Origin: Prevotella sp.
GTDB lineage: Bacteria; Bacteroidota; Bacteroidia; Bacteroidales; Bacteroidaceae
Length of the DNA stretch: 64,000 nucleotides
Direction: 5' to 3'
Assembly: GCA_017623655.1 (NCBI GenBank)
Contig: JAGAON010000008.1
Location: 124,001-188,000 of the forward strand
This document shows, piece by piece, positions 5,385-63,672 of the stretch. Position numbers and translations under genes: made by a program. Position 1 is the stretch's first letter. Each line of letters begins with the position of its first letter. Below the pieces are notes generated by a model. That model made no database searches, had not been told where the DNA came from, and saw only the letters and a list, made by a program, of their open reading frames with translations.

Positions 5385-5430
5385 AAAAGGGTGCTGATTG
5401 CAGTGTAATCAGCACCCTTTTGCAACGGCA
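5385..5430. repeat. GGGTGCTGATTAC palindrome
   Basis: AAAAGGGTGCTGATTGCA is followed by its near-perfect inverse, giving a hairpin with an A-tract before and a T-tract after. It starts the long composite repeat. Confidence 0.8.
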
Positions 5431-5439
5431 TTTATAACA

Positions 5440-5750
5440 TATTGAACCGCAGGAAGTTATTGGTAACGGGAATAAAGCCCCGACGGGGCGGAATAATACC
5501 TTTTTCTTCATACGTTATAAGTTCACAGGGTTTATACCCTGTGCTATATTGTTTCGCCCCGTCAGGGCTTCATCACCGCTTTGTAGAGACGAGGTATTAC
5601 CTCGTCTCAATATGAACCGCCGTGCGATACGATTACGGAGACGATGTGGTACATCGTCTCTACATACGGGTAATAATCCTATTTGCATCGACCTTTATAA
5701 CGCATAGAGCGCAATGTCTTGTGGGGATGCACCTTGGTGCGTCCAAATCA
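5440..5750. repeat. Composite intergenic repeat, copy 1
   Basis: Successive palindromic blocks: GCCCCGACGGGGC (about 5477), CACAGGG-TTTATA-CCCTGTG (5525), CGCCCCGTCAGGGCTTC (about 5560), a GTAG-headed GAGGTA palindrome (5581-5610), a GATGT palindrome (5638-5664), and GGATGCACCTTGGTGCGTCC (about 5725-5745). The same blocks in the same order form 14010-14545. This accounts for most of the 550-bp gap between tolC and the DUF3089 gene; no gene is seen in it. Confidence 0.85.
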
Positions 5751-13920: not shown

Positions 13921-14008
13921 AAAAGGGTGCTGATTACAATGTAATCAGCACCCTTTTACCGTATAATCAGCACCTGTTTACAGGGTAATCAGCACCCTTT
14001 TGCAACGC
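13921..14008. repeat. GGGTGCTGATTAC palindromes, including a perfect 37-base one
   Basis: Bases 13921-13938 and 13940-13957 are exact reverse complements around a single base: A4, a GC-containing stem, then T4. Two more inverse units follow up to 14008. The position between convergent genes fits a bidirectional terminator. Confidence 0.85.
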
Positions 14009-14009
14009 C

Positions 14010-14545
14010 TTCTGTAACGCTTTGAATCGCAGGGAGTTATTGATAACGGAAATAAAGCCCCGACGGGGCGGAATAATACAGCACAGGGTGTAAGCCCTGT
14101 GTTATGGAATGCCAACCCTATGACAGTATCGGAACCCCGAAGCCGGCAGGCGAGGAGCACACAGTGCGACGAGGGGTGAAATGCAAACGGATAGCAAAAA
14201 ATGTGCGACAAGCGGCAAGGTCTATTGGCAATAAAGCGCTGATATATCACCCCTCGCTGCCCTTGGGGCATCTCGCCTACCGGCTTCGGGGTGCCAATAC
14301 CTTCTTCTCCATACGTAATCAGTTCACAGGGTTTACACCCTGTGCTGTATTGTGTCGCCCCGTCGGGGCTTCATCACCGCTTTGTAGAGACGAGGTATTA
14401 CCTCGTCTCAATATGGAACACCGTGCGGTACGATAACGGAGACGATGTGGTACATCGTCTCTACATACGGGTAATAATCCTATTTACATCGCCCTTTATA
14501 ACGTTTTGAATGATAATGCTTTGTAGGGACGCACCTTGGTGCGTC
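14010..14545. repeat. Composite intergenic repeat, copy 2, carrying an insertion
   Basis: Same block order as 5440-5750: GCCCCGACGGGGC, then (after an insertion) CACAGGG...CCCTGTG, CGCCCCGTCGGGGCTTC, GTAG-headed GAGGTA palindrome (14383-14412), GATGT palindrome (14439-14465), GGGACGCACCTTGGTGCGTC (about 14525-14545). Together with the palindromes before it, it fills the gap between the glycosyltransferase and the small winged-helix gene. Confidence 0.85.
14080..14300. mobile_element. About 216-bp non-autonomous insertion with 5-bp target duplication
   Basis: Compared with copy 1 of the composite repeat, copy 2 is interrupted at 14080-14295. AATAC occurs at both junctions (14075-14079 and 14296-14300). 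The insert contains CACAGGG...CCCTGTG near its left end and imperfect 24-bp inverted repeats at 14131-14154 and 14272-14295 (core ACCCCGAAGCCGG, two mismatches). It has no coding capacity. MITE-like; the transposase is unknown. Confidence 0.6.
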
Positions 14546-24185: not shown

Positions 24186-24302
24186 TAAAAGGGCGTTGAT
24201 TACCGTGTTTTCCGCCTGCAAAAGGCATTCGTTCAGGTAACAAAAAGGTGCTGATCACAATGTAAAAGGGTATCAATTACACAGTGAACAGCACCTTGTT
24301 GC
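24186..24302. repeat. Diverged GGGTGCTGATTAC palindromes
   Basis: Units such as AAAAGGGCGTTGATTACC, AAAAAGGTGCTGATCACA and GTGAACAGCACCTTG are recognisable but mutated. They lie in the 700-bp divergent gap between the MscS and tcdA genes; apart from repeats and promoters no gene is seen there. Confidence 0.65.
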
Positions 24303-24440
24303 GCAATGATGCCTTTTCTGCCGCATCACAAAAGCATCCCGAGCCATGTTTTTCTTCTATTTTGCATTTGCGGGCGGGGGATGCGATTTAACACGGTTAA
24401 CAGTTTTTTAAGGTCACAACAGCAATTATTTCGCCCTCGT

Positions 24441-24524
24441 TGTAGAGACGATGTACCACATCGTCTCCCCACCCTTCTTTCGCATTTTTTGATTATTGAG
24501 ACGATGTGGTACATCGTCTCTACA
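24441..24524. repeat. Head-to-head pair of GTAG palindromes (BIME-like)
   Basis: Forward copy TGTAGAGACGATG...CATCGTCTC at 24441-24467 and inverted copy GAGACGATG...CATCGTCTCTACA at 24498-24524, 30 bases apart. The pair could fold into one long hairpin or two small ones. It lies about 55 bases upstream of the tcdA -7 box. Confidence 0.85.
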
Positions 24525-24577
24525 AGGCGGGCGTGCAAGGTCTCTGTGATTTTCTTGCTCATTCGCAAAATAATTCG

Positions 24578-24585
24578 TATCTTTG
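24578..24585 (+). promoter_or_regulatory. -7 box of tcdA
   Basis: TATCTTTG, 36 bases before the ATG at 24621. It supports that start over the much longer open frame. Confidence 0.65.
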
Positions 24586-24620
24586 CACGTCAAAAAACGA
24601 CAGCAAAAACAATATTGGCC

Positions 24621-25343
24621 ATGCAAGATATTTTCAACAGAGTGGAGCTATTGCTCGGCAGGGAGACGATGAAACGCATCACGTCATGCAGGATAATGAT
24701 AGTAGGCGTGGGCGGAGTAGGCTCATGGTGCGCCGAGAGTCTGGTGAGATCCGGCATCGGACACCTGACGATTGTTGACAGCGACAGCGTGTGTGCGTCC
24801 AACATCAACCGCCAACTGATGGCCACCACCGCTACGGTGGGCAGGGCAAAGGTGGATGTGCTGCGCGAGAGGCTGCTGGAAATAAACCCTGACGCTGACG
24901 TGACGGCGATGCAAAGGGTATATCGCGGGGAAGACAACGCCTTCTTCCGCCTTGAAGATTATGATTACATCATTGACTGCATAGACTCCTTGAAGGACAA
25001 GATGGCACTGCTGCTGAACGCCACCGCCACCAAGGCCACGGTGTTATCGTCGATGGGAGCGGCTCTGAAAATGGACCCTTCGCAGATAAAAGTGGCGGAA
25101 TACTGGAAGGTTCGCGGCTGTCCTTTGGGCGCGGCGCTGCGTAAAAAGATGAAACGGGCCGGGCAGAAGCCTGCCAAGCCCGTTATGTGTGTGTATTCCG
25201 AAGAGTTGCTTGAGAACAAAGGCATAGGAGAAGTGCCGCGCGAAGGGAACAGCAACGGCACTCTCGCCCACATCACCGCCATATTCGGCTTCACCCTCGC
25301 AGGCCTTGTGATGAAGGACCTGACCGCAAACTGCGCGCAATAA
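24621..25343 (+). CDS. tcdA: tRNA threonylcarbamoyladenosine dehydratase
   Basis: 240 residues from the ATG at 24621. The frame is open further upstream, but that part runs through repeats and the promoter. Begins MQDIFNRVELLLGRE, then the nucleotide-binding IMIVGVGGVGSWCAESLVRS, IVDSDSVCASNINRQL (adenylation region, Arg/Asn conserved) and DYIIDCIDSLKDKMAL. This is the ThiF/MoeB fold of TcdA (CsdL), which uses ATP to cyclise t6A37 of tRNA. It ends 2 bp before the stop of the convergent GH31 gene. Confidence 0.92.
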   Translation: MQDIFNRVELLLGRETMKRITSCRIMIVGVGGVGSWCAESLVRSGIGHLTIVDSDSVCASNINRQLMATTATVGRAKVDVLRERLLEINPDADVTAMQRVYRGEDNAFFRLEDYDYIIDCIDSLKDKMALLLNATATKATVLSSMGAALKMDPSQIKVAEYWKVRGCPLGAALRKKMKRAGQKPAKPVMCVYSEELLENKGIGEVPREGNSNGTLAHITAIFGFTLAGLVMKDLTANCAQ

Positions 25344-34659: not shown

Positions 34660-35055
34660 TAAGTCCAAGGTGCAAGCCTTGGGAATTATCGCATCGAACG
34701 GCAAAACGTGTTGTCATCAACATCCACAGGGTTTACACCTCGGGCTTTAATCTATCACCCCTTCGGGGCTCATCGCTAACGTCATCATGCCCTACTGCGG
34801 GATACATATACCTACATTATATCATCCATACCACTCCACATACCACCCCTTCCGAATTGTTAAAGTTTCCTTAGCGGCGGAAGAAACGCCGTTTTCCACT
34901 GTGCTTTCACACCAATAATCAGACAAAACAGCCTGCATCAGAGCGTAATTTACACCCTGTACCGCCGCAAAAGAGGGCTGTTAACATTGTTATCGGGTGC
35001 TGATTACATTGTCAACAACGCCTGATTACAGAGTAAAAGGGCCTCTTTTGCGTCA
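34660..35055. repeat. Decayed composite repeat and GGGTGCTGATTAC units
   Basis: The 800-bp gap between rpmE2 and asnA has CCAAGGTGCAAGCCTTGG (about 34667-34684), CACAGGGTTTACACC and CACCCCTTCGGGGCTCATC (order as in the composite repeats at 5.5 and 14 kb, but diverged), then GGGTGCTGATTACATTG and GCCTGATTACAGAGT at about 34995-35036. No gene seen. Confidence 0.6.
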
Positions 35056-51085: not shown

Positions 51086-51282
51086 CAAAAGGGTGCTGAT
51101 TACCTCGTGATCAGGTGCTGATTACAGTGTAATCAGGCCTCTTTCACACAGCAATCAGCACCCTTTTACAGAGACTGTTGTAACGCATTGAATAGCAACG
51201 CAATGTTGGCGGTTATATTCCCCCGTATTTTCGGACGCACACCACCGTATAAGCAGACGCACCAAGGTGCGTCCCTACAACG
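51086..51282. repeat. GGGTGCTGATTAC palindromes and a GGACGCACC palindrome
   Basis: AAAAGGGTGCTGATTACC, AGGTGCTGATTACAGTG, TGTAATCAGGCC and CAATCAGCACCCTTTT at 51086-51168, then GACGCACCAAGGTGCGTCCC with TACAA at 51256-51281 (inverted GTAG-headed type). These fill the gap between ruvA and the acyltransferase gene. Confidence 0.75.
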
Positions 51283-56541: not shown

Positions 56542-56620
56542 TTGTAGAGACGATGTACCACATCGTCTCAATGAACAATGTAACGATGACTGGGAGACGA
56601 TGTGGTACATCGTCTCTACA
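56542..56620. repeat. Head-to-head pair of GTAG palindromes upstream of the RAYT gene
   Basis: Forward TGTAGAGACGATG...CATCGTCTC at 56542-56569 and inverse at 56594-56620, as at 24441-24524. They lie between the permease stop and the transposase start. Confidence 0.9.
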
Positions 56621-56690: not shown

Positions 56691-57359
56691 ATGACCGACA
56701 AACTTTTCCAAAACAAATACCGCATACAATCCACAAGGGCTATATGGCACGATTATAATTGCGGAATGTATTTTGTAACAATATGCACCGCAGAACACAA
56801 ACATCATTTTGGAAAAATAATCCTTGAAAACGATGAACCTAAAATGTTATTATCTGAAATCGGGATGGTGACCGATGAATGTATAAAAAAGATGGAAACG
56901 CTACATAACGACATTGTTGTACCATTGTATCAGATAATGCCAAACCATATACACTTAATCATCGTAGTAGAGGGTTCACCCACATGCAACAAGGAAACGC
57001 CATCGCCATGTAGAGACGATGTACCACATCGTCTCAATACAACACAACCTAACAACACAGAAACACAACCCGCATGTAGAGACGATGTACCACATCGTCT
57101 CAATAACCAATTACACCATACAGTAAACAAAAACAAACAACACATATCCCACAGCCGTGGACGGTTGTCGAATGTGATAGGAGGCTTGAAACGCGCCGTC
57201 ACAAAATACGCCAACGCAAACAACATTCCGTTTGTATGGCAACAACGTTTTTATGACCGCATAATGCGCGGTCAGGACGAGACAAACCGCATTGCGGAAT
57301 ACATTGAGAGTAACCTCGGAAACTGGCAGCAGGACGAACTCCTCGCAAAAGGGTGCTGA
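56691..57359 (+). CDS. REP-associated tyrosine transposase (RAYT, IS200-like HUH enzyme)
   Basis: 222 residues from the ATG at 56691 (MTDKLFQNKYRIQSTRAIWH). WHDYNCGMYFVTICTAEHKH opens the fold, MPNHIHLIIVVEG holds the HUH pair, and QRFYDRIMRGQDETNRIAEY carries the catalytic Tyr. RAYTs cut and join GTAG-headed REP palindromes. Two such palindromes lie inside the gene at 57009-57036 and 57075-57102 and are read through as CRDDVPHRLN between the HUH box and the Tyr domain. The stop codon lies inside a GGGTGCTGATTAC unit, so the last residues (KGC) come from that repeat. The gene is AT-richer than its neighbours. Confidence 0.9.
   Translation: MTDKLFQNKYRIQSTRAIWHDYNCGMYFVTICTAEHKHHFGKIILENDEPKMLLSEIGMVTDECIKKMETLHNDIVVPLYQIMPNHIHLIIVVEGSPTCNKETPSPCRDDVPHRLNTTQPNNTETQPACRDDVPHRLNNQLHHTVNKNKQHISHSRGRLSNVIGGLKRAVTKYANANNIPFVWQQRFYDRIMRGQDETNRIAEYIESNLGNWQQDELLAKGC
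57009..57036 (+). repeat. In-frame GTAG palindrome inside the RAYT gene, copy 1
   Basis: TGTAGAGACGATG...CATCGTCTCAA, identical in its core to the copy at 57075 and to the intergenic forward copies at 24441 and 56542. Confidence 0.92.
57075..57102 (+). repeat. In-frame GTAG palindrome inside the RAYT gene, copy 2
   Basis: Same 27-28 bases and same reading frame as copy 1, 66 bases (22 codons) further on. Between the copies is a low-complexity linker rich in Thr, Asn and Gln. Confidence 0.92.
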
Positions 57360-57436
57360 TTACACTGCAAACAGATGCTGATTACACTGTAAAAAGGCCT
57401 CTTTTACAATGTAATCAGCACCTGTTTGTTTTGCCG
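57347..57436. repeat. GGGTGCTGATTAC palindromes at the RAYT 3' end
   Basis: AAAAGGGTGCTGATTACACTG, AGATGCTGATTACACTG, then inverse TGTAATCAGCACC. The first unit contains the RAYT stop codon (57357-57359). The cluster lies between convergent genes. Confidence 0.85.
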
Positions 57437-63582: not shown

Positions 63583-63672
63583 CGCAATCAGCACCTGATT
63601 ACAGTATAATCAGCACCTGATTGCATTGTAATCAGCACCCTTTTACGGGGCAAGGTGATCAGCACCCAATCA
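63583..63672. repeat. GGGTGCTGATTAC palindromes next to the sstT stop
   Basis: Four inverse units (CAATCAGCACCTGATTAC, TAATCAGCACCTGATTGC, TGTAATCAGCACCCTTTT, GATCAGCACCC). The cluster abuts the stop codon of the sstT gene at 63670. Confidence 0.8.

Follow-up and report, generated by a model that had tools for sequence, protein, structure and literature searches.

In the window, the whole 64,000-nucleotide stretch of Prevotella sp. DNA that was analysed, we find a gene for a RAYT (REP-associated HUH/Y1 tyrosine transposase) that carries two copies of a REP palindrome within its own coding sequence (Table 1). A longer version of the frame, of 268 aa, starts at an in-frame ATG at 56553, which lies within the upstream REP. 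As judged from its homologues the gene is RAYT-like. It encodes the HUH motif and the single tyrosine by which RAYT or TnpA-REP proteins are recognized (H86-I-H88 and Y204), and it is flanked by a many-copy REP family that is represented by an inverted pair just upstream, as in published REPtrons, and by 145 places in the genome (see below). The solved TnpA-REP structure 4er8 was matched by a profile of 20 homologues at 6.4e-7, and the WQ pair is aligned in this match; across the alignment of the 20 homologues W183 is invariant and Q184 nearly so. The NCBIfam model REP_Tyr_transpos (NF047646) matches residues 149-208 only, with E=1.9e-8 and 34.3 bits against a curated cut-off of 80. A Pfam scan of the protein gave no matches and the codon-usage score of the ORF is low; the gene is credible because of its homologues.

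Table 1. Features of the RAYT locus, further repeat copies in the window, and the remnant in a relative of the same genus.
Feature	Position	Strand	Basis or remark
RAYT ORF, 222 aa	56691..57359	+	ATG 56691 to stop 57359
HUH motif H86-I-H88	56946..56954	+	both His invariant in 20-sequence alignment
Internal REP copy 1	57009..57035	+	exact match; encodes CRDDVPHRLN (residues 107-116, to 57038)
Internal REP copy 2	57075..57101	+	exact match; encodes CRDDVPHRLN (residues 129-138, to 57104)
W183-Q184, counterpart of E. coli W94-Q95	57237..57242	+	alignment and 4er8 match
Catalytic tyrosine Y204	57300..57302	+	invariant column; aligns to Tyr of 4er8 YI..N motif
Upstream flanking REP, left member of inverted pair	56543..56569	+	exact match
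Upstream flanking REP, right member of inverted pair	56594..56620	-	exact match
Dispersed REP copy	5638..5664	-	exact match
Dispersed REP copy	14439..14465	-	exact match
Dispersed REP copy, inverted pair with 24498..24524	24441..24467	+	exact match; within ORF 24306-25343
Dispersed REP copy	24498..24524	-	exact match
GTGCTGATTACANTG repeat sites	719-787, 5391-5415, 13927-13995, 24248-24262, 34997-35011, 51115-51139, 57353-57421, 63602-63638		
RAYT remnant, C-terminal part	L061 2003-2331 (locus = L032)		break at REPs

Both internal REPs sit in the linker between the HUH motif and the tyrosine. The sequence-only reading of this DNA had described them as two near-identical in-frame palindromes encoding the same ten residues each; this was confirmed, and the two are exact copies of the 27-mer TGTAGAGACGATGTACCACATCGTCTC, identical over 27 nt. 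They share one reading frame at a spacing of 66 nt (22 codons), and both begin at a codon boundary. The claim that the insertions leave the gene unbroken was borne out by a frame that is open from start to stop. Shuffled versions of the window sequence gave no matches to the 27-mer at up to three mismatches. Folded as single-stranded DNA, the two copies reach -11.1 and -10.2 kcal/mol (z of -6.7 and -6.4). The REP has one GTAG foot, and its stem begins G-C, A-T, G-C. The 22 nt preceding each internal REP are also similar (a 53-nt family, 87%), and copy 2 may be a tandem copy of copy 1 within an A/C-rich linker.

The window also contains a second dispersed repeat, with units of GTGCTGATTACANTG that often occur as inverted pairs or as direct copies spaced 22 nt; it has 18 matches at up to two mismatches, versus 0.1 by chance. 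One of these arrays (57353-57421) overlaps the stop codon of the RAYT gene. Units of this repeat were present in 23 of the 250 fetched loci, mostly REP loci of the window's genome (G000) and the RAYT remnant of the same genus.

The REP family in the genome of the window

The palindromes do belong to the gene's own REP family, as had been proposed from the letters: TGTAGAGACGATGTACCACATCGTCTC occurs in G000, an assembly of 59.95% completeness, at 145 places (73 + 72) with up to two mismatches, and a reversed control pattern occurs at none. For the coding context we placed the 66 exact sites by coordinate and considered ORFs that are 100 aa or longer and extend 20 aa or more beyond the REP in both directions. 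Eighteen of the 66 sites fall within such ORFs, two of them in the RAYT gene and two in the window ORF 24306-25343, whose ThiF domain starts at residue 116, past its two REPs. The remaining in-ORF sites are in ORFs with low codon scores and without a Pfam match. Among the 14 other REP-bearing ORFs scanned, no REP lies inside a Pfam-matched part, although the missing Pfam matches are weak evidence because the RAYT gene itself has none. The placement of REPs within ORFs of this genome appears selective.

A deletion remnant in the same genus

A relative in the same genus (G021, apparently identical with L061) has the same gene neighbours, but of its RAYT gene only the sequence past internal REP 2 is left; the left flank runs on from the upstream REP region. 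A deletion between REPs, by the RAYT or by ordinary recombination alike, would explain this arrangement. We found no close full-length homologue without the inserts, the nearest relative being this deletion remnant. The proposal that the element inserted into its own gene stands in part: the inserts are the gene's own REP, they are in frame in a linker and the gene is open, but a recent insertion is not directly visible among these relatives. A further locus from the genus of the window, L033, has a RAYT linker with four hairpin-derived segments in a row.

The remnant, the incomplete genome of the window and the poor codon-usage score of the ORF could also point to a pseudogene or an assembly artefact. 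However, the open frame keeps the residues that are invariant across the 20 aligned homologues, and the same pattern recurs in many well-completed genomes, and we consider this explanation extremely improbable.

Hairpins inside related RAYT genes

From 166 RAYT loci we obtained 142 full-length ORFs, of which 138 have both motifs (four were dropped for a missing motif match). The loci were taken by rank among the matches listed, down to a cut-off that left out 38 lower listed places, and the set of 138 genes may count some genes twice. A hairpin was defined by a stem of at least 10 bp with at most one mismatch, a loop of 2-8 and, on one strand or the other, a GTRG foot. We find 85 such footed hairpins inside the ORF, in 69 of the 138 related RAYT genes, a rate that is biased upwards because the loci were found by the window protein or by a profile including hairpin-bearing genes. 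Shuffling the codon order (n=20) gave a mean of 0.6 hairpins and a maximum of four. The hairpin-bearing genes span several phyla. A singular event of self-insertion is not supported by these counts, nor by the description of in-frame REPs in the text of a 2018 paper (PMC6006769). The sequence-only reading had named the same inserts in distant homologues as the mark of an ancient domain sequence; hairpins near the same site are indeed present in other genera and phyla, but their cores differ. Across the surveyed sequences the internal hairpin is thus not an old domain that became fixed, and it is not a single event either.

The linker between HUH and Tyr holds 75 of the 85 hairpins, in 65 genes, and 53 of these 75 start 8-24 residues past the HUH motif; 73 of the 138 genes are without a footed linker hairpin. 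Within the RAYT gene the density is 2.13 hairpins per kb in the linker, 0.27 in the N-terminal part and 0.07 in the C-terminal part. In the flanks, counted raw with any neighbouring genes included, it is 1.34/1.10 per kb at less than 200 nt, 0.27/0.25 at 200-500 nt and 0.06/0.09 at 500-1000 nt. Other ORFs of the same loci contain 13 hairpins in 217,791 nt (265 ORFs), or 0.06 per kb versus 0.99 in the RAYT ORFs. These densities bear on passive insertion, in which REPs spread near the RAYT gene, insert in frame into a peripheral linker that tolerates them, cause little damage there and are lost again by drift. This is the published reading, argued for RAYT genes in the text of Quentin et al. (2018, PMC6006769) and for other genes in that of Di Nocera et al. 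(2013, PMC3733652). The local enrichment of hairpins around the RAYT gene and the many genes without one in the linker are what passive insertion would produce. However, the linker is denser than the flanks although most insertions into it should be harmful; unselected in-frame insertion is expected to be rarer in the linker, and the excess counts against passive insertion.

Two observations lie beside this pattern. In the N-terminal half of the gene, a second internal hairpin site directly follows the HYFGEI motif (L062 3135-3166 and L063 3406-3433), and locus L182 (G404 C2:2300420-2302059), in a genome of 2.9 Mb, has three tandem RAYT matches, one with an internal stop.

Among the 67 hairpins with a readable foot, GTR is a codon in 52, the next phase is used in 15 and the phase with TAG in frame in none. 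The majority phase corresponds to a V-E-T frame (52 vs 15), and the C-R-D frame of the window's gene is also used. This bias is one of two observations that would favour the encoded peptide as an old protein element that matters in itself, the other being an invariant residue in five of the eight aligned codons of the hairpin in the six species described below. However, the cores and their residues differ widely, the C-R-D frame is used as well, and in those species silent positions are conserved beyond the residues. We consider a role of the peptide highly improbable, and with two frames in use and varying residues we reject it as the main driver.

The foot is on both strands in 34 of the 75 linker hairpins; of those with a foot on one strand only, 18 have it on the coding and 16 on the template strand. 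The suggestion that the hairpin lets the enzyme bind its own message receives no special support from these numbers. Such an mRNA operator, through which the enzyme would repress translation or alter decay, would fit the strong hairpin on the coding strand (by DNA folding parameters) and the GTAG on the coding strand in both window copies. Nevertheless, neither strand is preferred in the survey, and the hairpin is located mid-gene, distant from the start codon. We regard an operator in the message as improbable, and with strand bias absent an mRNA-specific site is not favoured.

On a tree of the 138 genes, built without the linker, the presence of the hairpin needs at least 38 changes, compared with a mean of 46.2 for shuffled labels, 2 of 200 of which did as well or better. 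The hairpin has been gained and lost often and follows descent loosely. Frequent gain and loss agree with passive insertion, and a strict version of retention, in which the hairpin is ancestral and always kept, is rejected by the 38 or more changes. A footed linker hairpin is shared by the nearest neighbour in 7 of 9 cases at a core identity of at least 0.75, in 19 of 26 at 0.60-0.75, in 16 of 27 at 0.50-0.60 and in one of three below that, at a base rate of 47%. The hairpin has the same offset in the nearest neighbour in 2, 9, 7 and 0 cases, respectively. This suggests moderate retention of the linker hairpin between nearest neighbours.

Match to the flanks and copy number

Sorted by where their footed hairpins lie, the 138 loci comprise 25 with hairpins in the linker and also in the 500 nt next to the gene, 40 with linker hairpins only, 20 with external ones only and 53 with none at either place. 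In 18 of the 25 loci with both, the internal core matches the locus's own flank at 0.85 or more, versus 11 of 600 cross-locus comparisons. By an alternative count, 31 of the 85 internal hairpins recur with up to three mismatches elsewhere in their own locus, whereas an average of 2% of the other loci contain such a copy.

For copy number we scanned hand-picked hairpin-bearing genomes with the gene's own hairpin. The hairpin was present in the gene only in G422, G619 and G534, and likewise in G420, by a narrower search that gave one dissimilar match in addition. G468 has three copies, all at the RAYT locus. The gene and one more copy were found in G519, G573, G416 (where other hairpin families are dispersed) and G475 (counted with a pattern two mismatches off its own hairpin), and the gene and two diverged copies in G467, whose other families are dispersed. 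In G560, G451 and G614 the hairpin occurs at the locus and at a few places elsewhere, and it is dispersed in G408 (15 places), G649, G692, G509, G432 and G000. G423 shares a hairpin family with G451 and G560 and has five copies of it; they flank its two RAYT genes, and none is inside these genes.

A lineage with one close hairpin copy per genome

G422 belongs to a genus other than that of the window; of 150 genomes of this genus, 51 gave a match and six contain close orthologues (85-100% identity). This is one clade, chosen because a copy number of one was already known for it. In all six genomes, which are 5.0-5.9 Mb in size and 99-100% complete, the hairpin AGRCAGGGCATGCCCTGYCT is found once per genome (20-nt pattern, at most three mismatches), inside the RAYT gene. 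In one of the six, G707, the gene is broken and the hairpin core is still present. A diverged hairpin related to the internal one lies just past the stop codon in L223, L225 and L226, and is missed by the scans at three mismatches.

The hairpin has a mean pairwise identity of 0.89 among the six species, and the linker on either side of it 0.52 and 0.42. Its 14-nt centre is invariant in the six orthologues; six further runs of 14-26 nt, which encode conserved parts of the protein, are likewise invariant in these genes. Of the fourfold third positions, 6 of 6 in the hairpin are invariant versus 13 of 38 (Fisher p=0.004), six being a small number of sites, and GC3 is 0.50 in the hairpin versus 0.23. 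The inner ten pairs are intact in all six, in L223 by a double change from A-T to G-C. The outer four pairs decay: L223 has a wobble at one of them, and the number of broken pairs is one in L224, two in L225 and four in L226, where a gap accounts for part of the loss. Both L225 and L226 have GTAC in place of the GTAG foot. In these alignments the inner stem of the hairpin is conserved more than the foot.

An intact inner stem with conserved silent sites, in six species where a near-identical genomic donor is absent, counts against passive insertion. Four of these orthologues, however, have a decayed outer foot, which counts against a recognition site because a site that is read through GTAG should keep its GTAG; this lowers the odds of a retained site and raises those of passive insertion.

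Discussion

The gene in the window is a true example of a published phenomenon. According to the text of PMC6006769, subclass 2.4 is the only one with in-frame REPs inside the tnpA-REP genes, for the most part in the stretch from HuH to Y, and the window RAYT is probably a TnpA-REP that resembles this subclass. By the description in that text, the likenesses are an HUH-Y1 enzyme with GTAG-footed REPs both flanking the gene and in frame between HuH and Y, the NH[IFV]H and WQ motifs (NHIH and WQ in the window) and an abundance of the subclass in Bacteroidetes. However, the consensus of the Y motif given there is YIxNNP, whereas the window RAYT has YIESNL, and the REPs of the subclass are long canonical ones with three consecutive G-C pairs at the bottom of the stem, or have a double foot, neither of which is found in the window REP. 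With the E. coli REPtron (4er8) the window gene shares a sequence-profile relation, the WQ and Arg residues and REPs that flank the gene; it differs in its internal REPs, given the restriction of these to subclass 2.4 in the same text. The W94-Q95 pair of the E. coli enzyme is discussed there for GTAG recognition. Palindromes in frame within ORFs are also described in the text of Di Nocera et al. (2013, PMC3733652), as intragenic GTAG/CGTC REPs inside other genes, and are known from the Rickettsia palindromic elements. These reside in many unrelated genes, whereas the host gene in the window is the presumed mobilizer, and, unlike the cases in that text, no other Pfam-supported gene of G000 holds an exact REP within its domain.

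How the hairpins came to be in the linker, and whether they are kept there, can be pictured as follows. The RAYT product would be expected to act on single-stranded REP hairpins, and new REP copies would arise genome-wide, with extra frequency near the RAYT gene. We infer that the internal copies were placed by RAYT activity and that the enzyme binds them. Of the whole protein, only the variable linker between HUH and Tyr would tolerate additional residues in frame. In this way the gene would come to contain its own substrate, with the encoded amino acids as passengers. The hairpin would then be kept beyond chance as a nucleic-acid site that the enzyme recognizes in its own gene, most likely as DNA because neither strand is preferred. 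Such binding might be a means of local control, or it might make the internal hairpin a founder copy through which enzyme and substrate stay linked. We assign this reading as a whole, retention as a nucleic-acid site included, a probability of about 0.45.

Passive insertion we consider a serious explanation, somewhat short of an even chance. In addition to the evidence given above, both window copies equal the genomic REP exactly, as recent copies would, and the text of PMC6006769 argues that the internal REPs form a peripheral extension, with little impact possible. In the text of PMC8266576 GTAG and hairpin are recognized by several enzymes, and the requirement for the foot varies. The internal hairpin may be kept as a nucleic-acid site, a case that is fair, short of decisive.

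Two aspects of the sequence comparisons would go a step beyond what is in print: the linker hairpin density above that of the flanks, and the conservation of the inner stem, at silent positions as well, in a hairpin of which the genome has a single close copy. The text of PMC6006769, its supplementary Figure S10 aside, does not mention silent-site conservation or a single-copy state, and a search by title and opening of the abstract, with subscription papers and supplements outside its scope, found no paper on the internal hairpin as a conserved element. That in this RAYT group the hairpin is a functional cis element under nucleotide-level selection, which can persist as the only close copy in a genome, appears to us somewhat unlikely.

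The finding bears on how REPs spread and on how RAYT genes persist without moving like ordinary transposons. If the hairpin is a retained recognition site, it would be a physical link between enzyme and substrate. The transposase gene would store its own substrate; the two would move as a unit and could give rise to a new REP population, and the linker would contain an unusual stretch of DNA that is selected at once as coding sequence and as structure.
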